Shown piece after piece: positions 38,718 through 56,540 of a DNA stretch of 64,000 bases. The position numbers were made by a program, and so were the translations under genes. How positions within the stretch are numbered: position 1 is the stretch's first letter; every line of letters starts with the position of its first letter. The DNA comes from Streptomyces sp. NBC_00775 (lineage in GTDB: Bacteria > Actinomycetota > Actinomycetes > Streptomycetales > Streptomycetaceae): contig NZ_CP108938.1 in NCBI RefSeq assembly GCF_036347135.1, positions 930,001 to 994,000 of the forward strand, given 5' to 3'. The notes below the pieces were generated by a model. It did no database searches. It was not told the origin of the DNA and saw only the letters and a program-made list of their open reading frames with translations.

Positions 38718-38770
38718 GGAAGGCCTTTCGATCGGTGGCAAGGGATCCTCGGACTCGGGGATCCGAGAAG

Positions 38771-39796: not shown

Positions 39797-41282
39797 GGTC
39801 CACTCCTTCGATGGAGGCGATCAGCTCGTGGTCGTGCCAGCCCGCCGGGTGCTCGGCGACGACACGGCCGTGGAAGAGGACGAGGACGCGGTCGCAGCGG
39901 CGCAGGTCGTCGAGTTCGTCGGAGACGACGAGCACGGCGGTGCCGTCCTCCCGGGCGCTGTCCATGCGGGAGAGCAGGGACTCCTTGGACTTCACGTCGA
40001 CGCCCGCGGTGGGGTTGATGAGGACGAGCAGGCGCGGGTCCGAGGCGAGGGCGCGGGCCATGACGACTTTCTGCGCGTTGCCGCCAGAGAGGTCGGAGAC
40101 GGGCTGCTCGGGTCCCTCGGTGTGGATGTCGAGGCGTTCGATCAGCTCGGTGGCGAAGCCGCGTCTGCGGTCGGTGCCGATGAAGCCGTAGCGGCCGAGG
40201 CGGCCCAGGACGCTCATGGTGGCGTTGTCGCCGATGCTCATCCCGGAGACGAGACCCTGGTCGTGCCGGTCGCGCGGAACGCAGCCGACGCCCGCCTTGA
40301 GCGCGGCACGCACATCGCCGAACGGCAGCCGCTCGCCGTCGAGTCGAGCGGTTCCACCGGTCGGGGTGTGCAGTCCGGCGAACGACTCGGCCAGCTCGAT
40401 CTTGCCGCTGCCGCTGGACCCGGCGAGGCCGAGGACCTCACCGCGGCGGACGGTGAGGTCGATGCCGTCGTACGCGTGCGAGGTCAGCCCCTGGACGTCG
40501 AGCATCACCCGGGCTCCGGCGGCCACGGACCGGCGCGTGTCCCCGTGTTCGGTGATCGACTCCCCCGCCATGGCCTCCACCAGCGCCGGGCGCGGGAGTT
40601 CGGCGACCGGCGCGGTGGTGATCCAGCGGGCGTCGCGGAGCACGGTGACGGTCTGGCACACCTCGTACACCTCCTGGAGGTGGTGCGAGATGAACAGGAA
40701 GGTGACGCCGGACTCCTGGAGTGCCCGCATGCGGGTGAAGAGCCGCTCGATCTCCCGGTTGTCGAGCTGCGCGGTCGGTTCGTCGAGGACGATGAACCGG
40801 GCGCCGAAGCTCAACGCCCGAGCGATCTCGACCATTTGGCGGTCCTCGACCTTGAGGTCGGCGGTCCGCGCCTCCGGGTCGACCCGCACGTCCCAGGTCT
40901 GAAGGACCTCCGCCGCCTCGGCCCGCAGCCGGCGCCAGCTGATGAAGCCGCCCCGGCCGACCGGCTGCCGGTTGATGAAGAGGTTTTCGGCGACCGTCAA
41001 CTCCGGTACGACGGTGGGCTTTTGGTACACGCAGGCGACCTTGCGGCGCCAGGCGTCGCGGTCGGCGAGCGGGGGTGCGGGCTCGCCGTCGAAGCGGACC
41101 GTGCCCTCGTCGGGGGCCTGGAGGCCGGTCAGAATGGTGACGAGGGTGGACTTGCCCGCGCCGTTGCGCCCGACGAGGGCGTGCGACTCGCCCGGCAGGA
41201 CGGTGAGTCGGCCGTCTTGGAGTGCGACGGTGGGGCCGTACCGCTTGGCCACGCCCCGCGCCTCCACCAGTGGGGTGCTCAT
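39789..41282 (-). CDS. CUT2-type sugar ABC transporter ATPase (two ABC domains)
   Basis: A 497-residue fused ATPase of the RbsA/RhaT kind. The first domain has Walker A GRNGAGKST near residue 37 and Walker B FIVLDEPTAQLD. The second has Walker A GSSGSGK, signature LSGGNAQK and, in place of Walker B, LLVLINPTAGVDVKSK, where the usual Asp-Glu is Ile-Asn. The second site is thus probably hydrolysis-deficient, which is seen in some rhamnose-type importers. ATG 41282 overlaps the binding-protein stop by four bases (ATGA). It energises import with the permease and lipoprotein on either side. Confidence 0.88.
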   Translation of the reverse strand: MSTPLVEARGVAKRYGPTVALQDGRLTVLPGESHALVGRNGAGKSTLVTILTGLQAPDEGTVRFDGEPAPPLADRDAWRRKVACVYQKPTVVPELTVAENLFINRQPVGRGGFISWRRLRAEAAEVLQTWDVRVDPEARTADLKVEDRQMVEIARALSFGARFIVLDEPTAQLDNREIERLFTRMRALQESGVTFLFISHHLQEVYEVCQTVTVLRDARWITTAPVAELPRPALVEAMAGESITEHGDTRRSVAAGARVMLDVQGLTSHAYDGIDLTVRRGEVLGLAGSSGSGKIELAESFAGLHTPTGGTARLDGERLPFGDVRAALKAGVGCVPRDRHDQGLVSGMSIGDNATMSVLGRLGRYGFIGTDRRRGFATELIERLDIHTEGPEQPVSDLSGGNAQKVVMARALASDPRLLVLINPTAGVDVKSKESLLSRMDSAREDGTAVLVVSDELDDLRRCDRVLVLFHGRVVAEHPAGWHDHELIASIEGVDHG

Positions 41283-42343
41283 GTGACCGTGTTGCCCCAG
41301 AGCTTGGGGTCGTCGACGTTGTCCTTGGTCACCAGCGGCGCGGGCAGCTGGTCCTCCAGGATGCCGCTGGGCAGCTTGACGATCTCGGAGTCGTGGTCGG
41401 TCGGGCCGGTCTTGAACGTCTTTCCCTGCATCGCGGCCTTGATGTAGTACATGCCGTACTTGGCGTACGCGTCGGCGGGCTGCGAGACGGTGGCGTCGAT
41501 CTCGCCCTTGCGGATGGCGTCGAACTCCTGCGGGATGCCGTCGTTCGAGACGATCGCGATGTGGCCCGCCTGGCCCGTCTTCTTCAGCATGCCCTTGGAC
41601 TTGAGGGTCTGGAGGGTGGGAGCGAGGTAGACGCCGCCCGCCTGCATGTAGATGCCCTTGATGTCGGGGTTGGCGTTCAGCAGGGTGTCCAGCTTGGAGG
41701 CCGCGGTGTCGGACTCCCACTTGGCGGGGATCTCCAGGACCTTCAGCTTCGGGTAGTTCTTCCGCACGCAGGTGCGGAACGCCTCGGAACGCTCACGGCC
41801 GTTGACGGACGCCAGATCGCCCATGATCTGCACGACCTTGCCGGAGCTGATCTGCTTGCCGAGGTACTGACAGGCCTTCTCGCCGTACGCGACGTTGTTG
41901 GCGCGTACGACCATGGCGACCTTGCCCTTCTCGGGCGCGACGTCGACGGCGACCACGGGGACGCCCTTGCGCTCGGCCTGGTCGAGGCCGGCGGCGATGG
42001 CGGCGCTGTCCAGGGGAGCCACGACCAGGCCCTTCACACCCTGGTTGAGCTGGTTGTTGATGTCGGTGATCTGCTGCGACGGATCACTGTTGGAGTTGAC
42101 GGTCTTGAGCGCGTCCACGCCCTCGGACGTCGCCATCTTCGGGACGTAGTCGTTGTACGACTGCCAGAACGGTGAGGTCAGCAGGGGCAGGATCACCCCG
42201 ACCTTGCCGGTGCCGCCTCCACCGCCGCCCGAGGCCCCGGTGTCCTTGGTGCTGCCGCACGCCGTGAGCGCGAGGGTCGCGCAGGCGGCCACAGCCACCG
42301 CACTGAGGGAGATCCGCCTGTTTCGCAGTTTTCTGCCGGCCAT
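41279..42343 (-). CDS. Sugar ABC transporter substrate-binding lipoprotein (CUT2 type)
   Basis: A 354-residue lipoprotein with lipobox LTACG (Cys30) and a Gly-rich linker. It has the Peripla_BP_4 fold: KVGVILPLLTSPFWQSYND, then DINNQLNQGVKGLVVAPLD, then AIVSNDGIPQEFDAIRKGE. The RbsB-like pattern indicates a monosaccharide ligand. It is the first gene of an operon that continues through ATPase, permease and five fucose enzymes, and it is divergent from a GntR regulator across 165 bp containing an inverted-repeat operator. Confidence 0.88.
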   Translation of the reverse strand: MAGRKLRNRRISLSAVAVAACATLALTACGSTKDTGASGGGGGGTGKVGVILPLLTSPFWQSYNDYVPKMATSEGVDALKTVNSNSDPSQQITDINNQLNQGVKGLVVAPLDSAAIAAGLDQAERKGVPVVAVDVAPEKGKVAMVVRANNVAYGEKACQYLGKQISSGKVVQIMGDLASVNGRERSEAFRTCVRKNYPKLKVLEIPAKWESDTAASKLDTLLNANPDIKGIYMQAGGVYLAPTLQTLKSKGMLKKTGQAGHIAIVSNDGIPQEFDAIRKGEIDATVSQPADAYAKYGMYYIKAAMQGKTFKTGPTDHDSEIVKLPSGILEDQLPAPLVTKDNVDDPKLWGNTVT

Positions 42344-42508: not shown

Positions 42509-43210
42509 GTGGACGAGTCCGCCCCGCAGAAGGGCACCGTGACACAGCGCGCCATCGAGCAGATCACGGCGATGATCGGCGAGGGCCGTCTCGAGCCGGG
42601 CCAGCGGCTGCCGACCGAGCGTGATCTCGCCGCCCAGCTGGGCATCTCCCGCAGCTCGATGCGCGAGGCGATCCGCGCGCTCACGGTCATGGGCGTCCTG
42701 GAGGCACGGCACGGATCGGGCATCTACGTCACGCAGTTGGAGGCCGGGGACCTCCTGGAGACCTTCGGTGTGGTGGCCGATCTGTCCCGGGGCCCGCGCC
42801 TGGTCGAACTGCTGGAGATCCGCCGGATCCTGGAGTCGACGGCGACCGCGCTCGCCGCCGCCCGCATCTCGGCGGACGAGCTCGCCGAGGTCGAGAAACA
42901 CCTCGCGGCGATGAACGCGACGGACGATCCGGAGGAGATCCTCGCCCACGACCTGGCCTTCCACCGCGCCATCGGGGCGGCGGCGGGCAACGAGACGATG
43001 GCGGCCATCCTGGAGGGCCTCTCCTCACGCACCTTCCGCGCCCGCGTCTGGCGCGGTTACCAGGAGGAGGGCGCCTTCGAGCGCACCCGGCGCGAGCACG
43101 CGGCGATCCACCGCGCGCTGGTGGCGCGCGATCCGGAGGCGGCACGGGCGGCGGCGGCCGCGCACGTGGGCGAGGTGGAGGAGTGGCTGCGGACCCAGCT
43201 CAAGCCGTAG
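42509..43210 (+). CDS. GntR-family (FadR/FCD) transcriptional regulator
   Basis: A 233-residue regulator. The winged helix-turn-helix is in residues 10-75 (GQRLPTERDLAAQLGISRSS, then MREAIRALTVMGVLE), and the FCD ligand domain in 95-225 has the metal-binding Asp/His set (HDLAFHRAIG, HAAIHRALVARD). GTG 42509 has AGGAGG eight bases upstream. Divergent from the CUT2 importer-fucose operon, it is the obvious repressor, with a fucose-pathway intermediate as inducer, which is inference. Its stop codon lies within the loop of a terminator hairpin. Confidence 0.87.
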   Translation: MDESAPQKGTVTQRAIEQITAMIGEGRLEPGQRLPTERDLAAQLGISRSSMREAIRALTVMGVLEARHGSGIYVTQLEAGDLLETFGVVADLSRGPRLVELLEIRRILESTATALAAARISADELAEVEKHLAAMNATDDPEEILAHDLAFHRAIGAAAGNETMAAILEGLSSRTFRARVWRGYQEEGAFERTRREHAAIHRALVARDPEAARAAAAAHVGEVEEWLRTQLKP

Positions 43211-43331: not shown

Positions 43332-46300
43332 TCAGGCGCGCTTCAGCCTGAGTGTCACCAGCTCGAACGGGCGCAGCCGCAGCGTGATCCGGTCGCCTTC
43401 CCGCCCCGGTGCCGCCGCGTCCGCGAGCGGCCGCTCCAGCAGGTCGGTGACCGCGACGGCCGCGACCTCGAAGCCCGCCGTGAGCGAGACGCGCGTACGG
43501 CCGCCGCGGGACTCGTGGAAGCGGACGACCACGTCGCCACTGCCGTCGTCGGCCAGCTTGACCGCCGTCACGACGACCGCGTCCTGGTCGACGGTCACCA
43601 GCGGGGCGACCTCCTGGGAACCGGTCAGCCGCCGCTCCGGCACATTGATCCGCCACCCTTCGCGCACCGCGTCGCCGATCGCCGCACCCGGCACCAGCGC
43701 GTGCCGGAAGCGATGGACGCCCTGATCGGTCTCGGGGTCGGGGAAGCGCGGGGCGCGCAGCAGCGAGACGCGCACGGTGGTGGTCGTACCGGAGTCGGTG
43801 TCGCGGACGGTCCGGGTGACGTCATGGCCGTACGTCGAGTCGTTCACCAGGGCGACGCCCCAGCCGGGCTCCTCGATGTGCACGAACCGGTGGTTGCACG
43901 CCTCGAACTTGGCGGCCTCCCATGACGTGTTGGTGTGCGTGGGCCGGTAGAAGTGCCCGAACTGGGTCTCGGACGCGTACCGTTCGGCGTGCACGTCGAG
44001 CGGGAAGGCGAGCTTCAGGAACTTCTCGGTCTCGTGCCAGTCGACCTCGGTGTAGATGCCGAGCCGCGGCTCCCCCGGAGCGAGCGACAGCACCTGGGTG
44101 ACCCGCGACACGCCGAAGGACCGTACGATCCGCACCGACACGCCGTCCTCACCAGGCACGACCTCGTCCGCGTCGACCAGGTCGGTGACCGTGTTGCGGT
44201 AGAACTCGTCGACGTCCCAGGCGTCCCACATGTTCGGGAAGTCGGGGTGGAGCTGGAGGAGGTTCGCCGCCTGCCCGGGCGCGATCGTCTCGCGGTCGGC
44301 GAGGAGGTCGTACGCGGAGACGACGAGCCCCCGTGCGTCGATCTCGACGTGCAGCAGGCCGTTGTCGAGGACGTAGCCGCCGTTCACGCGCGGCGCGAGC
44401 GCGGCCTCACCCTCGACGAGGGCCGCACCGGCTCCGCCCGCCGCAACCCCGTCCCTGCTGTGCGGCGCCGAGTTGAAGACCAGGGCCGCCGAGCCCTCCC
44501 CGGCCAGGGCGCGCTGGGCCGTGCCGATGATGCCGTCCAGCTCCTCGGCGACCTTCTCGTACGTCTTGCGCGCCTCCCGGTGCACCCAGGCGATGGACGA
44601 CCCGGGCAGGATGTCGTGGAACTGGTGGAGCAGCACCGTCTTCCAGATACGGTCCAACTCCTCGTACGGATACGGGAACCCGGTCCGTACGGCCGCGGTC
44701 GCCGCCCACAGCTCGGCTTCGCGCAGGAGGTGTTCGCTGCGGCGGTTGCCCTGCTTGGTCCTCGCCTGACTGGTGAGCGTGGCGCGGTGGAGCTCCAGGT
44801 ACAACTCGCCGGTCCACACGGGTGCGTTGGGGTATTCGGCCGCCGCCTTCTCGAAGAACTCGGCGGGGGTCTCCCACACCACGGTCGCGGAGCCTTCGAG
44901 GTCGCGGAGCCTGGCCGCCTTGGCGACCATCTCGCGCGTGGTGCCACCGCCTCCGTCGCCCCAGCCGGTGGGGGCGAGGGAGTGCCGGGCGACGCCCTTG
45001 TCCTTGAAGTTTCGGGCCGCGTGGGCGATTTCGCTGCCCTTCATGGAACAGTTGTAGGTGTCGACGGGCGGGAAATGAGTGAAGATCCGGGTGCCGTCGA
45101 TGCCCTCCCACTGGAAGGTGTGGTGCGGGAACTTGTTGGTCTGCGACCACGAGATCTTCTGCGTCAGCAGCCACTTGGAGCCGGCCGCCTTGATGATCTG
45201 CGGCAGCCCCGCGGCGAAACCGAAGGTGTCGGGCAGCCAGGCCTCGTCGTTCTCGACGCCGAACTCGTCGAGGAAGAACCGCTTGCCGTGCACGAACTGA
45301 CGGGCCATCGCCTCCGAGCCCGGCATGTTGGTGTCCGACTCGACCCACATACCGCCGGCGGGCACGAACCGCCCGTCGGTCACCGCCTTCTTCACCCGGG
45401 CCCACACCTCGGGGCGGTGCTCCTTCACCCAGGCCCACTGCTGGGCCTGGGACATGGCGAAGACGAACTCGGGCTCGTCCTCCAGGAGCGCGGTCATGTT
45501 GGAGGTCGTGCGGGCCACCTTGCGGACGGTCTCGCGCAGTGGCCACAGCCACGCGGAGTCGATGTGCGCGTGTCCGACGGCGCTGATGCGGTGGGCGGAG
45601 GGGACGGCGGGCACGGCCAGGACCTCCGCCAGCCGGGCGCGGGCCGCGGCCGCCGTACCGCCCACGTCCTGGAGGTCCACGGCGTCCAGTGCCCGCTCGA
45701 CGGCGCGCAGGATGTCCCAGCGCCGCGCGGACTCCACCGGCAGCTCGGCCATCAGCTCGCCGAGTACCTCCAGGTCGATGACCAGCTGCCAGACGGCCTC
45801 GTCGAGGACGGCGAGGTCCATGCGCTCCAGCTTGTACTGCGGCTCGCTTCCCGCGGTCTCCTTGTCGCCCAACCGCGTGGGCAGGAAGGGGTGGTAGTCG
45901 AGGATGACCGGGTTGGAGGCGGCCTCGATGTGCAGCCTCACCTCCTCGCCGCCCTCGACCGGGGCGCCGATCCGCACCCACTGGTTGCGCGGGTTGAGGC
46001 CCTTCACCGGAGTGCCGTCGGGCCGGTAGACGAGCCCCTCGCACTGGAATCCCGGCATGTTCTCGTCGAAGCCGAGGTCCAGCAGCGCCTCGACGGTCCG
46101 GCCGGCCCACGCCTCGGGCACGGTCCCGGTGACACGGAACCAGCTGGTGCCCCACGGAGCACCCCAGCGCGCGCCCACCTCGATCGGTTCCGGCGCGGCG
46201 GCCAGCCCTTCGGCGACCGGCACCGGCTCGCCGGGCGCGTGCCACACCGCCACCTCCAGCGGTACGGACTCGGGGTACACGGCGGGGCGGATGCGCTCGT

Positions 46301-46349
46301 CGAGGACGCGCCGGAGGCGGGCTTCGACCAGGGTGCGGTCGTCATGCAT
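43332..46349 (-). CDS. GH38 alpha-mannosidase, cytoplasmic
   Basis: A 1005-residue GH38 enzyme. The family signature GHAHIDSAWLWPLRET starts near residue 259 and supplies zinc-binding His and Asp. The nucleophile Asp is in AWLPDTFGFAAGLPQI near 371, and LHQFHDILPGSS near 570 gives a further zinc His. The C-terminal beta domains end in PFELVTLRLKRA. There is no signal peptide, so it works on imported oligosaccharides. ATG 46349 has GGAG nine bases upstream. It is the last gene of the operon with GH85, GH5 and a CUT1 importer, where it would strip alpha-mannose from N-glycan fragments. Confidence 0.93.
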   Translation of the reverse strand: MHDDRTLVEARLRRVLDERIRPAVYPESVPLEVAVWHAPGEPVPVAEGLAAAPEPIEVGARWGAPWGTSWFRVTGTVPEAWAGRTVEALLDLGFDENMPGFQCEGLVYRPDGTPVKGLNPRNQWVRIGAPVEGGEEVRLHIEAASNPVILDYHPFLPTRLGDKETAGSEPQYKLERMDLAVLDEAVWQLVIDLEVLGELMAELPVESARRWDILRAVERALDAVDLQDVGGTAAAARARLAEVLAVPAVPSAHRISAVGHAHIDSAWLWPLRETVRKVARTTSNMTALLEDEPEFVFAMSQAQQWAWVKEHRPEVWARVKKAVTDGRFVPAGGMWVESDTNMPGSEAMARQFVHGKRFFLDEFGVENDEAWLPDTFGFAAGLPQIIKAAGSKWLLTQKISWSQTNKFPHHTFQWEGIDGTRIFTHFPPVDTYNCSMKGSEIAHAARNFKDKGVARHSLAPTGWGDGGGGTTREMVAKAARLRDLEGSATVVWETPAEFFEKAAAEYPNAPVWTGELYLELHRATLTSQARTKQGNRRSEHLLREAELWAATAAVRTGFPYPYEELDRIWKTVLLHQFHDILPGSSIAWVHREARKTYEKVAEELDGIIGTAQRALAGEGSAALVFNSAPHSRDGVAAGGAGAALVEGEAALAPRVNGGYVLDNGLLHVEIDARGLVVSAYDLLADRETIAPGQAANLLQLHPDFPNMWDAWDVDEFYRNTVTDLVDADEVVPGEDGVSVRIVRSFGVSRVTQVLSLAPGEPRLGIYTEVDWHETEKFLKLAFPLDVHAERYASETQFGHFYRPTHTNTSWEAAKFEACNHRFVHIEEPGWGVALVNDSTYGHDVTRTVRDTDSGTTTTVRVSLLRAPRFPDPETDQGVHRFRHALVPGAAIGDAVREGWRINVPERRLTGSQEVAPLVTVDQDAVVVTAVKLADDGSGDVVVRFHESRGGRTRVSLTAGFEVAAVAVTDLLERPLADAAAPGREGDRITLRLRPFELVTLRLKRA

Positions 46350-46378
46350 GAGAGTGCTCCGTGGGGTGAGGGTGCGGG

Positions 46379-48379
46379 CTACCAGGTGTGGGTGGTCGTG
46401 GCGGCGGTCGAGATGGTGAACAGCTCCCCCACCGCGCGCAGTTCGAACCGTGCGGCGGTCTCGCCCTGCTCGGGGACGAGCCCGCCGGCGTAGAACGCGC
46501 GCTGGCAGGTGCCACCGAGGAAGCGGCGCGTGCCATCGGGGAGTGTCCGGTACAGCTCGTAGTGGCGTACGGGGCCGGTGGCGCCCTGCCAGGCGAAGCG
46601 CAGGCCGCCTCCGTCGGCGTCGGTGACGCGCAGGTCGGTGGGCGCGGCGGGGGTCACCACCGCGTCCCGGACGGCGAGCCCGCCGAGGCGCCAGCGCACG
46701 GGCCCGCCGGCGGCGGTCAGCCGGACGCCGATCGCGTGCACGGTCCCCGACAGGCCCGTCAGCCGCACGGTCGAGGTACCCCAGCTGCCGCTCGCGCTCA
46801 CGGGGAAGTACGTGTACGGGGGCGCCCCACCCGCCGTGCCCGGCTCGGCGGTGGCGACGGCGAGCTCGACCCGTGCGCTGCCGGAGTCGAGACGGTGGGT
46901 GAGCTCCACGACCGTGTCCGCGCCGAGCGGCAGCCGTGTCGCGTAAAGGTCCAGCGCGGCCGGCGCGTCGAGGGCGCCGTCGACCAGGAGACTGCTGCCG
47001 CCGCGCCAGGCGTCCGCGAAGTCGAAGGTGACCGAGGGGCGCCCGCCGGTGGTCCGCACCACCCAGCGGCGGGACGGCAGCCGGTCCTGGAGACCGAGGT
47101 GGTTCCAGGCGGCACCCGAGGTGACCTTGCCGTCCTCGTACCACTTCAGTCCGTGCCCGGTGTTGAAGACGGTCGCGAAGGGCACGGAGCTCACGGTGGA
47201 CCGGTCGGCGACGGAGACGGCGGGGGCGCGCCAGCCGGCGGTCGGGTCCGGCTTGGCGGGGTCGAGGGAGCTGCCGGTCCAGAACGTGTCGTCGGCGGCG
47301 TGGAAGTCGCCGGGCGTGCGGCTCGCGGGCAGGTGGTTGCGGGTCCACTCGGGCCGGTAGAAGCCGATGGAGGTGACGTGCGTCCTGGTGGTCGGCACGA
47401 TGGCGTCCCAGTTCACGGACGTGCCGGTGCCGCCCGCCTCGACGTCGACGCCCGCCCACAACTCGTAGCGGCTGCGGCCGAGTTGCTGGGCCGTCGTACC
47501 CGAGGACGCCAGACTGCTCTGGGACCAGCGGAAGTCGATGAACATGGTGTCGGCGGCCTGGAAGAACGTCTTGTTCTGGCTGTTCAGCGCGCCCTGCCAG
47601 CTCACCGAGCCGCTTACGGTCATGGAGTCGTACCAGGTGACGCGCTGGCCCTTGGCCGCCCCGAGCGTCTTCAGCTCTTTGAGGAAACCGAGCATGTCGG
47701 TGGCGAGCGCGGTGTTCCCGCCGCCGGTCTCGGCGTTGATGAACCAGCCGTCGAAGCCGTACGCGGCGGCTACGGCGACGAGTTGGGCGGCGAGCGGGTA
47801 GTGCCCGGTGGAGTCCTTCTGCACCAGGTCGCGGGTCCACTGGAGCTGGCCGCCGTAGGCGACGGGCGGCAGGAAGACATTGCCGAGGACGGGTACGCCG
47901 TGCCGGTGGGCCGCGTCCACGATCGGGGCGTTCGGGGCGAGGATCAGGCCCTCGCCGGACGAGCCGCCCCAGAAGACGAGTTCGTCGACGTACGCCCAGT
48001 GGGTGAGGGCGTAGTAGTCGGCGGTGGCCGCGCCCTGCGAAGGGTTGCCCGACGTGGGGCCGAAGGAGACCAGGGACTGGATGCGGGCCTGGCCTGAGCG
48101 GGCCGTCGTGTTCGCGGGGGTCGGGGTGAAGCGTGCGGCGAGCGGCACGGACGCCGCGTTGAACGCCAGATCCGTGTCGCCGTCGGCGCGCCAGGCATTG
48201 AGGCTGCGCCAGGTGATGCCGGTGCCGGGGGTGCCCGAGGGAAGCGAGTCGGGATACCAGTAGGAGGCGTACGGCTGGAGGTCGCGGGTGGCCGCGGCCG
48301 CCGTGCCGGACAGGCCGGGGACGAGCCCCGCGGCGACGCCGGCTCCGGCGAGCAGGACGGTGCGTCTGCTGAGGTTCAC
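46379..48379 (-). CDS. GH85 endo-beta-N-acetylglucosaminidase, Tat-exported
   Basis: A 666-residue secreted enzyme. GTG 48379 starts LSRRTVLLAGAGVAAG, a twin-arginine signal, with a GGAG upstream. The catalytic barrel (about 35-380) opens with LQPYASYWYPDSLPSGTPG and contains GFDGWFINAETG near residue 207-218, the Asn/Glu pair that GH85 enzymes use in substrate-assisted cleavage. Behind it come a galactose-binding-like beta domain and a fibronectin-III-like domain (APTDLRVTDADGGG to FLGGT). GH85 cuts the chitobiose core of N-glycans on glycoproteins, leaving one GlcNAc on the protein. It would release the oligosaccharide imported by the CUT1 system in the same operon. Confidence 0.9.
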   Translation of the reverse strand: MNLSRRTVLLAGAGVAAGLVPGLSGTAAAATRDLQPYASYWYPDSLPSGTPGTGITWRSLNAWRADGDTDLAFNAASVPLAARFTPTPANTTARSGQARIQSLVSFGPTSGNPSQGAATADYYALTHWAYVDELVFWGGSSGEGLILAPNAPIVDAAHRHGVPVLGNVFLPPVAYGGQLQWTRDLVQKDSTGHYPLAAQLVAVAAAYGFDGWFINAETGGGNTALATDMLGFLKELKTLGAAKGQRVTWYDSMTVSGSVSWQGALNSQNKTFFQAADTMFIDFRWSQSSLASSGTTAQQLGRSRYELWAGVDVEAGGTGTSVNWDAIVPTTRTHVTSIGFYRPEWTRNHLPASRTPGDFHAADDTFWTGSSLDPAKPDPTAGWRAPAVSVADRSTVSSVPFATVFNTGHGLKWYEDGKVTSGAAWNHLGLQDRLPSRRWVVRTTGGRPSVTFDFADAWRGGSSLLVDGALDAPAALDLYATRLPLGADTVVELTHRLDSGSARVELAVATAEPGTAGGAPPYTYFPVSASGSWGTSTVRLTGLSGTVHAIGVRLTAAGGPVRWRLGGLAVRDAVVTPAAPTDLRVTDADGGGLRFAWQGATGPVRHYELYRTLPDGTRRFLGGTCQRAFYAGGLVPEQGETAARFELRAVGELFTISTAATTTHTW

Positions 48380-48422
48380 TGTGTGCTCCGTATTCGTTGG
48401 GGGACGGACTACGGTGCTGGGG

Positions 48423-49655
48423 TCACGCGATGGCCTGACCCGGTGTGACGACCTCGCTGATACCGCGAGCGACGAGGTGCTCCTTGTCGTCGGCACGGCT
48501 CGCGAGGACAGTGGTGGGACGGACCCCGTCGGCGGTCAGCCGGGCGAAGGCCTCGAACACCGGGCCTCCCGGCGCACAGACCGAACGGCCCGGCGCGGTG
48601 TCGACGACCAGCGCGGTGGTGCGCGCGGCGGGTGTCTGCGGCCGGCCCTCCTTGACGATCCGGGCGAGGGTCTCCCCGGCCGGCTTGGTCTGCCGGTCAT
48701 TGGTCAACAGGCCCAGGCTGTACTCGAGTTCGGGGAAGTCGGAGAGGTCGCGGCTGACGTCGTGCGAGCACCACCAGGTCACGCCCCACACATCGGGGCA
48801 GTCGAGGGCGTTCGCGACGGTCGCCTCGGTGAAGGCGGCCGCGTGCTCGGCGGGGATCAGCGGGGCGGGCGCACCGACCTCCTGGAGCCAGACCGGGCGG
48901 TGCGGGTCGTCCGCCCAGGCCTTGGCGAGTTCGATGAGGTACGCGGCGTGGTGCTCGGTGGCGACACCCGTGCGGCCGTGCCGCTGGGCCGTCCCGTTGA
49001 ACACCCACGAGTGCACGGCGGTGACCGCGCCGAGCCGTGCCGAGTGCTCGGGCGTGAACGGCTGGTCGTCCTGGTACCAGGCGGCGTCGTACGAGGCGTG
49101 CAGATGCAGCTTGCCGGGGGCGCCTTCCGCGCAGGCGGTGAGCAGACGCCGAAGCCACGCCCCGGCCTGCTCGGGCGTGACGCGGTCCGGGTCGGGGTGC
49201 GGGCCGGCGGCGAACTGGTTGACCTCGTTGCCGATGGTCATGCCGATGAAGTTCGGCCGGTCGGCGAGCGCCGCGGCCAGGGTGCGCAGATACTCCGCCT
49301 CCCCCTCCACCACCTCCGGGTCGGTGAAGAGGTTGCGCCGGTGCCAGGTCCGCGTCCAGGCGGGCAGGAAGTCGAAGCTCGACAAGTGCCCTTGCAGTCC
49401 GTCGACGTTGACGTCGAGGCCGCGTTCGGCGGCCGCGTCGGCGAGCGCGACGAGCTGCTCCATGGCGCGCGGGCGGATCAGGGTGCGGTTGGGCTGGAAG
49501 TAGGGCCACAGCGGGAAGACCCGGATGTGGTCCAGGCCGAGCGCGGCGATCGAGTCGAGATCGGCGCGTACGGCGTCGAGGTCGAAGTCGAGCCAGTGGT
49601 GGAACCACCCTTGACTCGGGGTGTAGTTGACGCCGAAGCGCACGGCAGCAGACAT
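48423..49655 (-). CDS. GH5-type glycosidase, probable Man-beta-1,4-GlcNAc mannosidase (GH5_18-like)
   Basis: A 410-residue clan GH-A barrel without signal peptide. It opens RFGVNYTPSQGWFHHWLDFD; the acid/base Glu is in TIGNEVNQF near residue 140 and the nucleophile Glu in VWLQEVGAP near 256. The overall look is that of GH5 subfamily 18, whose studied members are bacterial beta-mannosidases acting on Man-beta-1,4-GlcNAc, the core left after GH85 and GH38 action. The subfamily call rests on recognition and context, not on a search. ATG 49655 has AAGGA seven bases upstream. Confidence 0.78.
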   Translation of the reverse strand: MSAAVRFGVNYTPSQGWFHHWLDFDLDAVRADLDSIAALGLDHIRVFPLWPYFQPNRTLIRPRAMEQLVALADAAAERGLDVNVDGLQGHLSSFDFLPAWTRTWHRRNLFTDPEVVEGEAEYLRTLAAALADRPNFIGMTIGNEVNQFAAGPHPDPDRVTPEQAGAWLRRLLTACAEGAPGKLHLHASYDAAWYQDDQPFTPEHSARLGAVTAVHSWVFNGTAQRHGRTGVATEHHAAYLIELAKAWADDPHRPVWLQEVGAPAPLIPAEHAAAFTEATVANALDCPDVWGVTWWCSHDVSRDLSDFPELEYSLGLLTNDRQTKPAGETLARIVKEGRPQTPAARTTALVVDTAPGRSVCAPGGPVFEAFARLTADGVRPTTVLASRADDKEHLVARGISEVVTPGQAIA

Positions 49656-49687
49656 GCGGATTCCTTGCGGATCTGAGGTACGGGAGG

Positions 49688-50593
49688 TCAGCCCTTGACG
49701 GCGCCCTCACCCACGCCACGGAAGAAGTACCGCTGGAGACAGGCGAACAGGGCGATCAGCGGCGCCACGGCGATGATCGTGCCCGCGGCGACGAGCCGTT
49801 CGTCGTTGGCGAAGGTGCCGTGCAGATAGTTGAGTCCGATGGTCAGGGTGAACTTCGAGGGGTCGCTGAGGACGATGAGCGGCCACAGGAAGTCGTCCCA
49901 GGAACCCATGAAGGCGAAGATCGCGACGACGGCGAGGGTGCCCTTCACCGACGGCAGCGCGATCCTCAGGAACCGCTGCCAGGCGTTCGCCCCGTCGACG
50001 AAGGCCGCCTCCTCGATCTCGTAGGGAAGGTTGAGGAAGGCGTTGCGCATCAGCAGGACGTTCATGGCGCTGATGCAGGCGGGCAGCACGACACCGATCA
50101 GCGTGTTGTTCAGACCGAGTTCCCGCATGGTCGTGAACTGGGCGATGATGATGCTCTCGGCGGGCACGAGCATCGCCAGGATGAAGACGAGTGTCGCGAC
50201 GCGCCGGCCGCGGTAGCGCAGCCGGGCCAGGGCGTAGCCCGCGAGCGCCGAACCGAAGCAGTTCGTCACGACGTTGGCGGTGGCGACCTTCAGCGAGTTG
50301 AGGGCGTAGTCCCAGACCGGAATGGTGTCGGCAACTCGCTTGTAATTGTGGAGAGTTGGCTCGCTCGGCAGAAACTTGGGCGGTGAGCTGAAGATGTCCT
50401 CGTGCGGCCCCTTGAGGGATGTCGACAGCTGCCACAGGAACGGTCCGACCGTCAGGGCGAGTACGGCGAGCAACAGCAGGTAGCGCAGGGCAAGTTCCCA
50501 GGCGCGGATGCGGCGGCCGTGCTCGTCGGCGACACGGGGCTCCCGCGCGGCCGCCGGACGCTCCACCGGTCGTGTCTTCTCGGCGACGCTCAC
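49688..50593 (-). CDS. CUT1-type ABC transporter permease (MalG-like)
   Basis: A 301-residue inner-membrane permease with six helices. The EAA loop is EEAAFVDGANAWQRFLRIAL, which contacts the ATPase. A MalG-type N-terminus starts LRYLLLLAVLALTVGPFLWQ. GTG 50593 overlaps the upstream permease stop by four bases (GTGA). CUT1 systems import oligosaccharides. No ATPase gene is in the operon; in Streptomyces the shared MsiK ATPase commonly serves such importers. Confidence 0.9.
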   Translation of the reverse strand: MSVAEKTRPVERPAAAREPRVADEHGRRIRAWELALRYLLLLAVLALTVGPFLWQLSTSLKGPHEDIFSSPPKFLPSEPTLHNYKRVADTIPVWDYALNSLKVATANVVTNCFGSALAGYALARLRYRGRRVATLVFILAMLVPAESIIIAQFTTMRELGLNNTLIGVVLPACISAMNVLLMRNAFLNLPYEIEEAAFVDGANAWQRFLRIALPSVKGTLAVVAIFAFMGSWDDFLWPLIVLSDPSKFTLTIGLNYLHGTFANDERLVAAGTIIAVAPLIALFACLQRYFFRGVGEGAVKG

Positions 50594-51507
50594 GCCTCCT
50601 CCTTCCGGTCGGCGCGCAGCACCAGCAGCATCAGGACGACGGTGACGGCGAAGACGACGACCGAGATGGCGGAGGCGTAGCCGACCCGGCCGCTCAGCCC
50701 GGTACCGGTGCGCTGGACGAGCATGACGAGGGTGGTGTCCTCGCCCGCGGGACCGCCGTCCGGGCCCGCCATCAGATACACCTCGGAGAACACCTTGAAC
50801 GCGGAGACCGAGGAGAGCGCGCCGACCAGGACCATGGTGGAGCGGACGGCGGGCACGGTGACCGTGAAGAAGCGGCGCACCGCGCCCGCGCCGTCCACCA
50901 TCGCGGCCTCGTGCAGTTCGCGGGGCACGTTCGCCAGCGCGGCCAAATAAATGATCATGTAGTAGCCGAGGCCCCGCCACACCGTGACGGCCATGGCGCT
51001 CAGCAGGAGCAGCCACTGATCGCTGAGGAAGCCGACCCTGCCGACACCGATCGCCTCCAACAGCGCGTTCACCAGCCCGCGTTCGTCCAGCAGCCACACC
51101 CAGATGAGCCCGACCACGACGATCGAGGCGACGACCGGGGTGTAGAAGGCCGACCGGAAGAACGTGATGCCGGGGATGTTCTTCTGGACCAGCAGGGCGA
51201 GCAGCAGCGGCAGCAGGACGAGCGCGGGGACGACCCCGAGCACGTACAGCGTGCTGTTGCGCAGACCGGTCCAGAACATGTCGTCGTGCAGCAGCTCGCG
51301 GAAGTTGGCGAGGCCCACGAACCTGCCCGGGATCAGGGTGCGGCGGTCGGTGAAGGCGTTGATGAGCGTGGAGGCGAACGGGTACAGGATGAAGACGCCG
51401 GTGATCAGCAGCCCGGGAGCGGCGAACAGCCAGGGGCTGCTGGGCAGATGGCGCCGCACCCGCGCCGCACGCCGGGGTCCGCCGAAAACGGTGGAAGAAC
51501 TCGCCAT
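50590..51507 (-). CDS. CUT1-type ABC transporter permease (MalF-like)
   Basis: A 305-residue permease with six helices. LFAAPGLLITGVFILYPFAS forms the first helix and HEAAMVDGAGAVRRFFTVTV is the EAA loop. It starts six bases after the binding-protein stop and overlaps the MalG-like permease. With it, this forms the membrane pore of the oligosaccharide importer of the GH85-GH38 operon. Confidence 0.9.
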   Translation of the reverse strand: MASSSTVFGGPRRAARVRRHLPSSPWLFAAPGLLITGVFILYPFASTLINAFTDRRTLIPGRFVGLANFRELLHDDMFWTGLRNSTLYVLGVVPALVLLPLLLALLVQKNIPGITFFRSAFYTPVVASIVVVGLIWVWLLDERGLVNALLEAIGVGRVGFLSDQWLLLLSAMAVTVWRGLGYYMIIYLAALANVPRELHEAAMVDGAGAVRRFFTVTVPAVRSTMVLVGALSSVSAFKVFSEVYLMAGPDGGPAGEDTTLVMLVQRTGTGLSGRVGYASAISVVVFAVTVVLMLLVLRADRKEEA

Positions 51508-51513
51508 GCCGGA

Positions 51514-52809
51514 TCAGCCCTGCTGCTGGAGCAGCGTGTCGCAGGCCTTGACAGCGTTGTCAAGAGCCGTCTTGGGGCTCTCCTTGCCCTGGAGCGCCTT
51601 GGCGACCTCGTTGCGCAGCGCGGTCTTCATCTGCTCGCTGAAGAGGACGGGGGTGTAATTGACCGCGTTCTTCAGGGACTTGGCGGCCGCGATCCGCACG
51701 CGGGTCTCGTCGGTGCCGTCCTCCTTGGTGAAGTACGGGTCGTCGAGCGAGCCGGCGGTGCTCGGGAAGATGGCGACCTTCTTGGCGAACGACATCTGGT
51801 TCTGGGCGTCGGTGACGTAGTGCGCGAAGGCGACCGCCGCCGGGGTGTGCTTGGTGCGGGAGTTGACCATCACACCCATCACGTACATGTTCACCTTGCC
51901 GGTGCTGGTGATCTGGTCGGTGATGCCGATGTTCTTGTACAGGTTGGGCGCCTGCTTCTTGAAGTTGCCGAGGTCCAGGGCGCTGCCCGGGTTCATGGCG
52001 ACGGCCTCGGTGAGGAACTTCTTGCCGGACGACTCGGGGGTCGCGGTCAGCGCCTGCGGGTCGAGCGCCTTGGCGTCGTACAACTCCTTGTACTTGGTCA
52101 GGAGTTCGACCCCCTTGGTGTCGTTGAACGCGAAGCCGGTGCCTTCCTTGTTCATCAGCTCGACGCCATAGCGGCCGAAGTCCTCGACGGTGGGCACATT
52201 GGCGAGGGTGGCGACCTTGCCGTCGCTCTTCTTCGCCAGCTGCAGGGCGTCGGCGAAGAGTTCGTCGTACGTCGTGGGCGGCTTGGAGGCGTCGAGTCCG
52301 GCCTCCTTGAAGAGCGACTTGTTGTAGAAGAGCGGGCCGGTGTTGAGGTACCAGGGGAAGGCGTACGTGCCGGTCATGCCCGGTATCCGGTGGCTGGCCC
52401 AGGCGCCGTCCAGGTACTCCTTCTTGTACTGGCCGGCGGACTTGTCGAGATCCAGGGCCAGGCCCGCCTTGGCGAGCGGGGCGACGAGGTCCGGCGAGAC
52501 GTTGACGACGTCGGGCAGGGTGCCGCCGGCCGCGTCCGCGCTGATCTTGTCGGCGTACCCCTCGGCGGGCTGGTCGATCCACTTCACATGGGTGCCGGGG
52601 TACTTCTTCTCGAAGTCGGCGATCACACCCTCGAAGTACGGCTTGAAGTTGGCCCTCAGGTTCCAGGTCTGGAAGGTGATGTTGCCCTCGACCTTGCCGG
52701 AGGCGTCCGTCGAACCGCCGCCGTCGTCACCGGAACCGCAGGCGCTCAGCGGCAGGACGAGGGCGACGGCGGCGACGACAAGTGCGGGTGCTCTGCGAGG
52801 CTTTCGCAC
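51514..52809 (-). CDS. CUT1-type oligosaccharide-binding lipoprotein
   Basis: A 431-residue extracellular binding protein of the MalE/SBP_bac_1 family. The lipobox is LSACG. The fold shows NITFQTWNLRANFKPYFEGV, GTLPDVVNVSPDLVAPLAKA and Trp/Tyr-rich sugar contacts (YAFPWYLNTGPLFYN). GTG 52809 has AGGAG ten bases upstream; the longer TTG start is less likely. It is the first gene of a six-gene operon (importer, GH5, GH85, GH38), so an N-glycan-derived oligosaccharide is the probable ligand. It is divergent from a LacI repressor with operators between them. Confidence 0.88.
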   Translation of the reverse strand: MRKPRRAPALVVAAVALVLPLSACGSGDDGGGSTDASGKVEGNITFQTWNLRANFKPYFEGVIADFEKKYPGTHVKWIDQPAEGYADKISADAAGGTLPDVVNVSPDLVAPLAKAGLALDLDKSAGQYKKEYLDGAWASHRIPGMTGTYAFPWYLNTGPLFYNKSLFKEAGLDASKPPTTYDELFADALQLAKKSDGKVATLANVPTVEDFGRYGVELMNKEGTGFAFNDTKGVELLTKYKELYDAKALDPQALTATPESSGKKFLTEAVAMNPGSALDLGNFKKQAPNLYKNIGITDQITSTGKVNMYVMGVMVNSRTKHTPAAVAFAHYVTDAQNQMSFAKKVAIFPSTAGSLDDPYFTKEDGTDETRVRIAAAKSLKNAVNYTPVLFSEQMKTALRNEVAKALQGKESPKTALDNAVKACDTLLQQQG

Positions 52810-52858
52810 GGTGACCGGGCTCCTTCGCAACGGTGGGTGAACGGTGCCGCGCCAGACC

Positions 52859-52868
52859 TTGCATGCAA
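52859..52868. promoter_or_regulatory. Palindrome TTGCATGCAA near the binding-protein start
   Basis: A perfect 10-bp palindrome about 50 bp upstream of the binding-protein GTG, in its 5' leader or promoter. Its relation to the LacI operators is unclear. Confidence 0.25.
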
Positions 52869-52898
52869 CTCACCAGGGAAGTCAATGGATTTGGTTCA

Positions 52899-52913
52899 GC
52901 TAAATTCATTAGC
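52899..52913. promoter_or_regulatory. Candidate LacI operator facing the importer operon
   Basis: GCTAAATTCATTAGC has perfect five-base arms GCTAA/TTAGC, the same arm sequence (CTAA/TTAG) as the GCGC-centred sites near the repressor gene, but with an odd-length centre. It lies about 90 bp upstream of the binding-protein start. Confidence 0.45.
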
Positions 52914-52963
52914 GGCACAACATGGCTGGTCAGGGATCTATGACAGGCCCCTTGAAACAGATC

Positions 52964-53003
52964 ACTAATGCGCTTTAGAGTGCAGCCACTCAAGCGCATT
53001 AGT
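52964..53003. promoter_or_regulatory. Paired LacI operators between repressor and importer operon
   Basis: Two 14-bp sites, CTAATGCGCTTTAG (52965-52978, 12 of 14 symmetric) and CTCAAGCGCATTAG (52989-53002), each with a central CpG as is usual for LacI-family operators, have centres 24 bp apart. They are also inverted copies of each other: ACTAATGCGCTT and AAGCGCATTAGT match exactly. The second ends 17 bp before the LacI start codon, so autoregulation is expected. Confidence 0.7.
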
Positions 53004-53019
53004 ACTCCGCCCCAGCAGA

Positions 53020-54075
53020 ATGGTGAGCAACGTGCCAGCCAAGCGGTCTCCCGCGCGCCGGCCGACGATGAAGGACATCGCGCGGCGCGCCGGAGTCTCC
53101 GAAAGCGCGGTCTCCTTCGCGCTCAACGACCGGCCCGGAGTCTCCGAGGTCACCCGCGACCGGGTGCGCCGGGTCGCCGAGCAGCTGGGCTGGCGGCCCA
53201 GTACGGCGGCGCGTCAGCTGTCCGGCGAAGGTGCGGCCACGGTCGGTCTGGTCGTGGCACGCCCCGCCGACACGCTCGGCGTGGACTCGTTCTTCCTCCA
53301 GCTGATCTCCGGCATCCAGGAAGTGCTGGCGGAGCGTCATCTCGGCCTGCTCTTCCAGGTGGTCGAGGACGTGGACGCCGAGTGCGCGGTCTACCGTCGC
53401 TGGTGGGCGGAGCACCGCGTGGACGGCGTGATGGTCGTGGACCCGCGCGTCGACGATCCTCGTCCGGACCTCCTGGACGAGCTGGGCCTGCCCGCCGTGG
53501 TCATCGGCGGTGCGCCGGACGCCCGGCATCCCGGGCTGTCCGTCGTCTGGGCGGACGACGCGGGCGCCATGGCCGCGGTCGTGGACGAGCTGTACGCGCT
53601 CGGCCACCGTCGGATCGTGCACATCGCGGGCCTGCCGGGGCTCGCCCACACCGAGCGCCGGATGCGTACCCTGCGCGCGGAGGCCCGCCGGCGGGGCCTG
53701 GCCGAGGTGCGTTCGGTGCCGACCGACTACTCGGACGCGGAGGGGGCGGCCGTCACGCGCCGCGTGCTGGAGAGCGGCACACCGCCGACCGCGCTGGTCT
53801 ACGACAACGACGTGATGGCCGTCGCCGGCGTCGCCGCCGCGACGGAGCTGGGCTTCTCCGTTCCGGGTGACGTCTCGGTGGTGGCCTGGGAGGACTCCGC
53901 ACTGTGCCGCATGGTCAAGCCATGGCTGTCCGCCCTCTCCCGCGACACCGTGCAGTTCGGGCGCACGGCCGCGCAGGAACTGACCGCGCTGCTGGACGGC
54001 GGTCCGGCGCGCACGGTGCAGGTGCCGGTGCCGCGGTTGATCGAGCGGGACAGCACGGGTCCCTGCGGGGCGTGA
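53020..54075 (+). CDS. LacI-family transcriptional repressor
   Basis: A 351-residue regulator. The helix-turn-helix and hinge are TMKDIARRAGVSESAVSFAL near residues 16-35 and RPSTAARQLSG; the rest is a periplasmic-binding-like sugar-sensing domain (TVGLVVARPADTLG, ALVYDNDVMAVAGVAAATEL, DVSVVAWEDSALCRM). ATG 53020 is used. In-frame GTG codons at 53023 and 53032 are alternatives because no clear ribosome site precedes the ATG. It is divergent from the importer-GH5-GH85-GH38 operon, which it most likely represses until an N-glycan breakdown product binds. Confidence 0.88.
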   Translation: MVSNVPAKRSPARRPTMKDIARRAGVSESAVSFALNDRPGVSEVTRDRVRRVAEQLGWRPSTAARQLSGEGAATVGLVVARPADTLGVDSFFLQLISGIQEVLAERHLGLLFQVVEDVDAECAVYRRWWAEHRVDGVMVVDPRVDDPRPDLLDELGLPAVVIGGAPDARHPGLSVVWADDAGAMAAVVDELYALGHRRIVHIAGLPGLAHTERRMRTLRAEARRRGLAEVRSVPTDYSDAEGAAVTRRVLESGTPPTALVYDNDVMAVAGVAAATELGFSVPGDVSVVAWEDSALCRMVKPWLSALSRDTVQFGRTAAQELTALLDGGPARTVQVPVPRLIERDSTGPCGA

Positions 54076-54182: not shown

Positions 54183-56540
54183 TCAGACCTGCCACTCCAC
54201 CTTGAACACCCACACGTACTGCCCGGCCTTGCGGGCCGCCTCCGGTACGTCGATCACCAGCGAACCGTTGCTCACCGTCCAGGTCAGCGGACGGTCGTGG
54301 CCCAGCAGGGTGACCTTGTCCCCGCCGCGGATCGGCACCGGCGCCTCGACGGTCAGTTTGTTGCCGGGCGCGGTCAGCGAGTGGATGTAGAACGCCTTGT
54401 TCTGCCGGACCGTGAACCGCAGGTCCTCGCCGAGCTGGGCCATGCGTGACCAGTACGTCGTGTCGTAGATCGCCTCGCCGTTGGTCCGCAGCCAGCGGCC
54501 GGTCTCGCGCAGCCGGGTCTGCATGATCTCCGGGATGGTGCCGTCGGCGCGCGGGCCGATGTCGAGCAGGAAGTTGCCGTTCTTCGACACGATGTCGACC
54601 AGGCTGCGGACGACCTCCTCGGCGGTCATGTACGCGGCGTCGGGCGTCGCCTGGTTGTAGCCGTAGCTGAAGGGGTCGAGCCCCCGGCTGGACTCCCACT
54701 TGGCGACAACGGTGTTCTCGTACGTCGTGTACTCGGGTGTCGTGAAGTCGTGGAAGCCGATGCCGGAGCGGTTGTTGACGGTGACCTCGTACGGCTTCGG
54801 CCGGTTCTTGCCGTGGTTGAAGTACTCGGCGAGGACACGAGCACTGTCGTTCGCCCCGCCGATGTCGCACCACAGCACGGACGGGTCGTAGCCGTGGATC
54901 AGCTCCAGCATCTGCGGGGCCTGATAGTCCTTCACATAGTCCTTGCCCGCGGTGTATCCGGTGTACGGGACCGGCTCCTGGGTGTACGGATTGCGCGGGG
55001 CGTGGCCCATCCACGGGTTGTCGGGGTTGAACCACTCGGGCATGGAGAAGTACAGGCCCCGGTGCAGCTCCGGAGTGAACTGCCGGGAGGCGTCGAAGAG
55101 TTCGCGGATCAGATCGCGCTTCGGCCCCATCTTCACGGCGTTGCGGTCGGCGACCTTGGTGTCCCAGAGGGCGAATCCCTCATGGTGTTTCGAGGTCAGG
55201 ACGTGGTACTGGGCTCCCGCGTCCCGGAACAGCTCCACCCACGCCCGGGGGTCGAAGTTCTTCGCCGTGAACATCGGGATGAAGTCGTCGTAGGCGAAGT
55301 TCTCCCCGTACTTCTCCCGGTGGTAGGCGTACACGGCGTTGTCCGGGCTCTGCAGGTGGTTCCAGTACCACTCGGCGTACTGCTTGCCGACGGGTGACCA
55401 CGCGGGCACGGAGTAGACGCCCCAGTGGATGAAGATGCCGAACTTCGCGCGGTGGAACCAGTAGGGGGCCTGGTGTCCGGAGAGTGACTCCTCGTTGGGC
55501 TGGTAGTCGGGCACGCCGATGGTCAACTCGCGGCTGCTGGAGGTGACTCGCTCGCCGCGTCCGGTGACGACGACCGCGCCGACCTGGGTGGTTCCGGGTG
55601 CCGTACCCACCCGGCTGCGGATGCCGACGCGGACGCGCGCCTGCTCACCGGGGTCGAGGCGCGTCACGCGCGCGGGCTCGACCGTGCGGGCGCCCGCCAC
55701 GTCGACGCCGACCGACACACGGTCACCGGCGAGGACGGCGACCGTGCCCGCGTTGACGACGGTGGCCTCGACGCTCTGGGCGCCGCTCGACTCCAGGAGG
55801 GAGAAGGTGGAGTGGGCGTCCCGCAGGGCCAACGCCCGTCCCTGGGCGGCCGGCTGGAGGGACAGGGCGAAGATGTGCAGGGACGCCTTGTTGGCCTCGG
55901 CGGGGTTGGTGGTCGGCAGGGTCAGGGCCACCGCGTCCCGCTGTGGATCGATCCAGACCTCGGCCGTGCCGATGCCGACGCGATGCTCGTCCTTGGTGCC
56001 GTCCGGTTTGTAGCGGTACGCGGCCGACAGTGAGCCGCCCGCCGCGTACCAGTCCGAGCCGCCCAGCCCGGCGGTGGTCGTCGAGCCGTCGGCGTAGTGG
56101 ACGGTGGCCTTGCCGGAAGCGTTGCCGTAGCTGCCCGCGGTGAGGAACAGGGCCGACAGATAACGGCCCTTGGGCAGGTCGATGCGCTGGCCCATCGCCA
56201 CCACGTTGTTCTTGGCGCCCGCGCCGGAGGAGAGGAACTGGAACGCGGTCCCGTCGACCTCCACGCGTCCCGCGGGGAGTTCCTCGCCCGGGAACGTGTA
56301 GCCGGAACCGTCGAAGTTCCCGCCGCGTGCCGCGGCGGTGTCGATGCCGTCGTTGTCGACGTAGGTGTCGAGCGGTACGGGTACCGGGTCGGGGACGGGC
56401 ACCCACTGGCCCTCCTGCCCGCCTGCGGAGGGCACCTCGCCCACGGCCCGCGCTTCGGCCGTGGCGGCGAGGGGAAGAGTGGCCGCGACGGCGACTCCGG
56501 CCGCGGCTCCCAGTACCTGACGTCTTGGATGCATGCTCAT
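54183..56540 (-). CDS. Secreted GH29 alpha-L-fucosidase
   Basis: A 785-residue exported enzyme. The N-terminus MHPRRQVLGAAAGVAVAATL is a twin-arginine-like signal. Residues 50-390 form N-terminal beta domains with NPCBM- and NEW3-like character. The GH29 barrel spans about 395-700, with FGIFIHWGVYSVPAWSP, LTSKHHEGFALW and the nucleophile Asp in VLWCDIGG near residue 556, followed by FLLDIGPRADGTIPE and a C-terminal beta sandwich. It releases alpha-L-fucose from glycans outside the cell, feeding the CUT2 importer and fucose pathway 12 kb away. ATG 56540 has GGGAG upstream. It is transcribed alone. Confidence 0.92.
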   Translation of the reverse strand: MSMHPRRQVLGAAAGVAVAATLPLAATAEARAVGEVPSAGGQEGQWVPVPDPVPVPLDTYVDNDGIDTAAARGGNFDGSGYTFPGEELPAGRVEVDGTAFQFLSSGAGAKNNVVAMGQRIDLPKGRYLSALFLTAGSYGNASGKATVHYADGSTTTAGLGGSDWYAAGGSLSAAYRYKPDGTKDEHRVGIGTAEVWIDPQRDAVALTLPTTNPAEANKASLHIFALSLQPAAQGRALALRDAHSTFSLLESSGAQSVEATVVNAGTVAVLAGDRVSVGVDVAGARTVEPARVTRLDPGEQARVRVGIRSRVGTAPGTTQVGAVVVTGRGERVTSSSRELTIGVPDYQPNEESLSGHQAPYWFHRAKFGIFIHWGVYSVPAWSPVGKQYAEWYWNHLQSPDNAVYAYHREKYGENFAYDDFIPMFTAKNFDPRAWVELFRDAGAQYHVLTSKHHEGFALWDTKVADRNAVKMGPKRDLIRELFDASRQFTPELHRGLYFSMPEWFNPDNPWMGHAPRNPYTQEPVPYTGYTAGKDYVKDYQAPQMLELIHGYDPSVLWCDIGGANDSARVLAEYFNHGKNRPKPYEVTVNNRSGIGFHDFTTPEYTTYENTVVAKWESSRGLDPFSYGYNQATPDAAYMTAEEVVRSLVDIVSKNGNFLLDIGPRADGTIPEIMQTRLRETGRWLRTNGEAIYDTTYWSRMAQLGEDLRFTVRQNKAFYIHSLTAPGNKLTVEAPVPIRGGDKVTLLGHDRPLTWTVSNGSLVIDVPEAARKAGQYVWVFKVEWQV

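Follow-up and report, generated by a model that had tools for sequence, protein, structure and literature searches.

Within the 64,000-nucleotide stretch of Streptomyces sp. NBC_00775 analyzed here (the window; contig NZ_CP108938.1, positions 930,001 to 994,000), the region 43332-54075 carries a run of six minus-strand genes and one divergent gene that probably form an operon for the utilization of N-glycans. According to the open reading frame (ORF) calls, the run encodes a solute-binding protein (SBP), two permeases, a GH5 glycosidase, a GH85 endoglycosidase and a GH38 alpha-mannosidase, in this order, and the divergent gene encodes a LacI-family regulator. The distances between the six consecutive genes, calculated from their coordinates, are 6, -4, 32, 43, and 29 bases, and because they range from a 4-base overlap to 43-base gaps, a single transcript from the SBP gene to the GH38 gene is plausible. 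A consensus scan detected no terminator after the GH38 gene. The same gene order recurs in many related genomes, which makes a chance arrangement unlikely. Gene calls and Pfam bore out the coordinates, strands and gene order given by an earlier interpretation made from the letters alone (the sequence-only reading); its family calls also held, through Pfam for GH85, GH38, the importer and LacI, and through matches to solved structures for GH5_18. Two ORFs of 1502 and 705 amino acids were rejected as full gene extents, the real starts being internal.

The GH5 gene (48423..49655, minus strand) encodes a beta-mannosidase of subfamily GH5_18. The protein has no Pfam or NCBIfam match, and its best solved match by phmmer is ScGH5_18 (7lr7, 2.7e-220). 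Nine of its ten solved matches lie between 4e-107 and 3e-220; eight of these are named GH5_18, BlMan5B or exo-beta-1,4-mannosidase, and one (9y4v) is named only "Glycosyl hydrolase". ScGH5_18 is followed by 9y4v, the BlGH5_18 chains, the exo-beta-1,4-mannosidase 6gvb, and the BlMan5B chains; the tenth and weakest match is an endo-beta-mannanase (1.7e-21). Both glutamate motifs (Glu144 and Glu259), which we take to contain the catalytic residues, align with the solved chains, of which the 7lr8 chain has alanine at one of them. The protein is predicted to act on mannose-beta-1,4-N-acetylglucosamine (Man-beta-1,4-GlcNAc), and no signal peptide is visible in its translation.

The neighboring gene (46379..48379, minus strand, GTG start) encodes an endo-beta-N-acetylglucosaminidase with the Pfam domains Glyco_hydro_85 (5.6e-85) and GH85_C. 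Thus neither GH85, by Pfam, nor GH5, by its GH5_18 solved matches, has moved to another family. The closest solved match is 2vtf (8.5e-111; 2vtf and 3fha both reach about 1e-110), and Endo-D (2w91) also matches (6e-71). An N-x-E motif, presumably the catalytic motif of GH85, is found at N215/E217, where WFINAETG aligns with WFINQQTE of 2vtf; the differing residue of 2vtf is presumably an engineered change. The twin-arginine N-terminus, VNLSRRTVLLAGAG, suggests that this enzyme is secreted. The GH38 alpha-mannosidase (43332..46349, minus strand) has four GH38-type Pfam domains above cut-off, namely GH38N (1.9e-94), a middle domain and two C-terminal domains. Its solved matches include the alpha-mannosidases 7ufr-7ufu (1e-218 to 1e-252) and Ams1 chains (5jm0, 5e-125). 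His260, Asp264 and Asp374, which we assume to represent the metal and nucleophile motifs, are intact, and the translation is again devoid of a visible signal peptide.

The importer consists of an SBP lipoprotein (51514..52809, minus strand; Pfam SBP_bac_1, 3.5e-44), a UgpA-like permease (50590..51507, minus strand; BPD_transp_1, 2.4e-11), whose best NCBIfam match, UgpA, is below the UgpA cut-off, and a second permease (49688..50593, minus strand; BPD_transp_1, 1.7e-19), which overlaps the first by 4 bases. The SBP has the lipobox VLPLSAC, and its LSAC suggests lipid anchoring. A family 1 SBP with two permeases and an ATPase encoded elsewhere is the composition of a CUT1 importer. Because the operon has no ATPase gene, a shared genomic ATPase is assumed; one ATPase above the PRK11650 cut-off, encoded elsewhere in the genome (G000:C1:5874479-5875606), which we take to be of the UgpC/MsiK type, may serve this importer.

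The regulator gene (53020..54075, plus strand) encodes both the LacI helix-turn-helix domain (Pfam LacI, 2.4e-14) and a sugar-binding domain (Peripla_BP_3, 9.5e-36). Two 14-base candidate LacI-type operators with a conserved site pattern, CTAATGCGCTTTAG (52965..52978) and CTCAAGCGCATTAG (52989..53002), lie in the gap between lacI and the SBP gene, 24 bases apart from start to start. The consensus promoter scan gave one promoter-like match (0.1 expected), with a predicted lacI -10 box at 52976-52981. This box shares 3 bases with operator 1, so that autorepression of lacI is likely. A promoter-like box upstream of the SBP gene, TTGACT ... CAAGGT (52856..52888, minus strand), was missed by the scan and is proposed from a conserved block in alignment A1, which comprises 11 sequences. 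Because these were all picked from tandem-site loci, operator conservation in A1 is partly a product of selection. A palindrome, CTAAATTCATTAG (52900-52912), partly conserved in A1, is situated between the operators and this box, and might take part in repression of the SBP promoter.

In a genus sample of 150 Streptomyces genomes, 37 have a single copy of the tandem operator pattern, and none has a match to the reversed-pattern control. For 35 of the 37 copies, a GH5_18 gene lies no more than 6 kb away (in one genome, G045, a gene of a second clade described below); the remaining two are in draft genomes, on a contig other than that of GH5_18. Among 80 named loci, the closest of 473 relatives, 74 have both lacI and the SBP gene; the exact pair is present in 58 of them, always within the lacI-SBP gap. 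Of the 136 single sites matching at least 13 of 14 positions in the 80 loci, 135 are in this gap and the other is about 50 bases from lacI (locus L211). The 11.1-Mb genome of the strain itself has no further site with at most one mismatch. When as many as two mismatches were allowed, 6 places matched the single-site pattern and 29 the reversed control; these sites are at chance level, because the control outnumbers the pattern, and a wider regulon in this genome was rejected. Of the four two-mismatch places, the one at 264598 is another LacI and sugar-SBP neighborhood. The conserved tandem operator beside lacI appears to be new as far as was found, no operator-directed literature search having been made.

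The operon is widespread and ordinary for Streptomyces. Its GH5_18 protein has matches in 97 of the 150 genomes at a threshold of 0.001, and in 72 at 67% identity or more. GH85 occurs in 59, including one weak partial match (G030). Both enzymes are present in 57 genomes, GH5_18 only in 15, GH85 only in 2, and neither in 76 (Fisher p ~1e-24, a value that ignores shared ancestry), and GH85 lies within 10 kb of GH5_18 in 52 of the 57 genomes having both. This co-occurrence, too, is new as far as was found. These tables leave out GH5_18 places below 67% identity (the second clade at 51-59%, and weak matches) as well as short fragments. Locus composition was counted in the 57 of the 80 named loci that have 10 kb on both sides, and the counts describe close relatives, because the named loci are the closest of the 473. 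LacI was found in 56 of the 57 loci, the SBP, both permeases and GH38 in 55 each, GH85 in 37, and the GH29 neighbor described below in 6; all seven genes are present in 36. S. griseofuscus DSM 40191 and S. albiflavescens are among the named relatives with a complete operon. LacI, the importer, GH5_18, and GH38 occur together in 55. A conserved cluster of GH5_18, GH38, a sugar importer and a regulator, which we take as the definition of a Gram-positive N-glycan utilization locus, is therefore found in the window and in 55 of 57 related loci.

The second GH5_18 clade accounts for 8 of the 60 loci in a wider locus comparison. In five loci (L076-L080), a GH5_18 gene of this clade (54-57% identity) stands beside a more distant CUT1 importer, and neither a GH85 nor a GH38 match was found in the 19-kb stretch; these loci perhaps serve another substrate. 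A GH5_18 gene with 75% identity is also located on the 2.8-Mb plasmid NZ_CP081497.1 of Streptomyces sp. BHT-5-2 (377825-379060).

Taken together, the family assignment of all parts, the characterized relatives of GH5_18 and the co-occurrence of GH85 and GH5_18 lead us to propose, with a probability of roughly 85%, an inducible operon for N-glycan scavenging, whose products cut, import and degrade the glycans of foreign glycoproteins. Secreted GH85 would cleave high-mannose or hybrid N-glycans within their chitobiose core, and the CUT1 importer, powered by the shared ATPase, would take in the released oligosaccharide. In the cytoplasm, GH38 would strip alpha-mannose, and the Man-beta-1,4-GlcNAc left over would be split by GH5_18 to yield mannose and GlcNAc. 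In the absence of a glycan signal, LacI is predicted to bind the tandem operator and to repress lacI and, probably, the operon as well. The sequence-only reading had outlined the same pathway, and its families, gene order, predicted locations and pathway logic stand; the novelty for Streptomyces that it suggested does not. A gene set for feeding on N-glycans, mostly considered in connection with bacteria of the gut and skin, is thus common in soil Streptomyces and apparently under specific control there, with fungal, plant, or insect glycoproteins as the likely glycan sources. The conserved operator pair offers a handle toward the inducer.

Several observations weigh against this interpretation, and some of them suggest that the substrate could instead be fragments of fungal or plant mannan or other beta-mannosides, with GH85 as an optional component and with GH5_18 and GH38 acting on imported manno-oligosaccharides. 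GH85 is missing from 20 of the 57 full-flank loci, while the importer, GH5_18 and GH38 are mostly kept, and one of the 37 GH85 proteins counted there is only 28% identical. GH85 was also not found in a 25-kb stretch of S. cattleya around the closest known system (see below). The best solved match of the SBP, 6wpm, tied by a database listing to a Synechococcus sugar-binding protein, is weak (7.6e-27), the others are weaker and bind various sugars, and no ligand can be assigned. One Streptomyces genome paper classes GH5_18 as a mannan enzyme (PMC11475409), and GH5 proteins of the same clade have other roles in actinomycetes: in Actinoplanes, GimA and GimB serve to open the matrix of the sporangium (PMC12691653). 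On the other hand, GH85 is present in 57 of 72 GH5_18 genomes versus 2 of the 78 others, and the characterized BlGH5_18 and BlMan5B of Bifidobacterium longum cleave the N-glycan core disaccharide Man-beta-1,4-GlcNAc; furthermore, genomes without GH85 may have another endoglycosidase. A mannan-directed function is very improbable, and N-glycan scavenging remains the preferred interpretation.

The regulatory part of the N-glycan proposal also meets with difficulties. The exact tandem pair is present in 36 of the 72 GH5_18 genomes and missing in the other 36, some of which retain one operator copy; it is also absent from 16 of the 74 named loci that have both lacI and SBP genes. Moreover, the operators are located about 80-117 bases upstream of the SBP promoter-like box, so that a simple overlap does not account for how the operon would be repressed.

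The N-glycan operon is flanked by genes for the release and use of L-fucose, which were absent from the earlier interpretation. On one side, convergent with lacI, lies a GH29 alpha-L-fucosidase gene (54183..56540, minus strand; Pfam Alpha_L_fucos, 1.5e-102; PDB 2zwy, 1e-81) with a twin-arginine-like N-terminus; the Pfam scan ran from 56759 and the gene start was put at 56540. Directly downstream on the other side, family and solved-structure matches define an L-fucose import and catabolism operon (34456..42343, minus strand), with a divergent GntR/FCD regulator (42509..43210, plus strand; Pfam FCD, 1.2e-25; GntR, 3.7e-20). A 206-amino-acid minus-strand ORF (42344-42964) was rejected as a gene, being antisense to the GntR gene, which has proper third-position GC. 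The fucose operon encodes a CUT2 importer (SBP, ATPase and permease), L-fuconate dehydratase (1yey, 3e-209), an SDR, an aldo/keto reductase, a RhaM-type mutarotase and an L-fuconolactonase-type amidohydrolase (4dlf, 1.4e-46), the last of which is named tentatively, its NCBIfam score being 220 against a cut-off of 400. Importer, mutarotase, dehydrogenase, lactonase, L-fuconate dehydratase and SDR, which we take to be the parts of the non-phosphorylating L-fucose pathway, are thus all found. A GH92 alpha-mannosidase gene (G000:C1:997270-999678) is situated outside the window, about 3 kb from its end and approximately 11 kb beyond the GH29 gene; two further GH92 genes are at G000:C1:2535267-2539615, and the genome has nine GH18 places, six of them above cut-off. 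A defence-family scan of three other proteins of the window gave no matches.

This arrangement raises the possibility of an extension of the N-glycan reading to fucosylated N-glycans, in which GH29 would remove fucose, the CUT2 operon would import and oxidize L-fucose, and the N-glycan operon would take the rest. Besides the secreted-type GH29 upstream and the fucose operon directly downstream, proximity in other genomes is in its favor: GH5_18 and fuconate dehydratase (at least 79% identity) are within 20 kb of each other in 25 of the 34 genomes having both, and the fucose-operon SBP and GntR were found in 29 and 31 of the 57 full-flank loci, respectively. However, adjacency can be explained by shared descent, and presence of the two modules is uncorrelated among the 150 genomes (34 with both, 38 with GH5_18 only, 30 with the dehydratase only, 48 with neither; p 0.32, ancestry ignored), so that co-selection of the modules by presence was rejected. 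The dehydratase counts leave out places below 79% identity and one partial match (G119, 82%), which has no GH5_18 place and would only shift 30 to 31. In addition, GH29 adjoins the operon in only 6 of the 57 loci, and the fucose operon of the strain itself has no operator copy at up to one mismatch.

In two genomes (G020, locus L220; G111, locus L221), GH85 has an amidase gene on one side and the fucose operon on the other, with the GH85-less N-glycan operon on another contig. A GH38 fragment adjoins GH85 in L220, suggesting a likely operon relic, and none does in L221; no operator matching at least 12 of 14 positions was found in either locus. A functional link between GH85 and fucose was therefore rejected for these genomes, and they too count against the extension, which we regard as doubtful. 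Similarly tentative is the notion of a conserved Streptomyces island composed of a secreted fucosidase, the LacI tandem-operator N-glycan operon, the L-fucose oxidation operon and GH92. Were it correct, one soil organism would dismantle both the mannose and the fucose parts of foreign glycoproteins, and the linked fucose operon makes this extension testable. The searched literature, with its limited coverage of subscription journals, contained no description of the fucose neighbor, and the fucose-cluster neighborhood of the N-glycan operon is new as far as was found.

The N-glycan operon itself is of a kind already described. The sequence-only reading knew of no Streptomyces operon of this composition, a claim of novelty that fails, given a 78%-identical GH5_18 on pSCAT, the solved ScGH5_18, the 51 Streptomyces GH5_18 sequences counted in PMC6160142 and the wide occurrence of the gene set in this genus. 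By its title, Higgins et al. (2021), cited in PMC9061262 and PMC12691653, deals with N-glycan pathways in actinobacteria that live in the gut and in soil. GH5_18, GH38 and GH85 also appear in Streptomyces tables of carbohydrate-active enzymes in PMC11475409, which mentions that putative chitinases might act on N-glycans. An account of this exact operon was not found in the searched literature, whose coverage of subscription journals is limited, so that its absence is not proven.

The closest known system is the pSCAT locus of Streptantibioticus (Streptomyces) cattleyicolor (S. cattleya), with ScGH5_18 (PDB 7lr7/7lr8; Higgins et al., 2021). Its GH5_18, GH38 and LacI proteins are 78%, 79.5%, and 75% identical to those of the window and are encoded in the same relative order, and a single operator copy lies between the lacI and GH5_18 genes. 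Unlike the window, this locus is on a megaplasmid, and its ATP-binding cassette (ABC) permeases are 52-55% identical, run in the opposite direction and stand beside a second GH38. The region convergent to GH5_18-GH38 (L217, 16348-24871) comprises an alpha-amylase-family gene, this second GH38 of 1459 amino acids with an NPCBM-associated domain, and the ABC permeases. B. longum relies on the same enzyme families for these cleavages of the glycan core (BlGH5_18, BlMan5B, the GH38 enzymes 7ufr-7ufu, which we take to be from this organism, and presumably a GH85), with lower similarity. According to PMC6160142, the GH38/GH5_18 pair is found in Cutibacterium acnes as well as in bifidobacteria and other genera, and CaMan5_18 of C. 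acnes, which adjoins GH38, is a confirmed exo-beta-1,4-mannosidase. The locus of C. acnes strain 266 adds GH20 and GH18, unlike the window, and GH85 is mentioned there for some strains only; common to both is the pairing of GH38 with GH5_18 for trimming of the glycan core in the cytoplasm.

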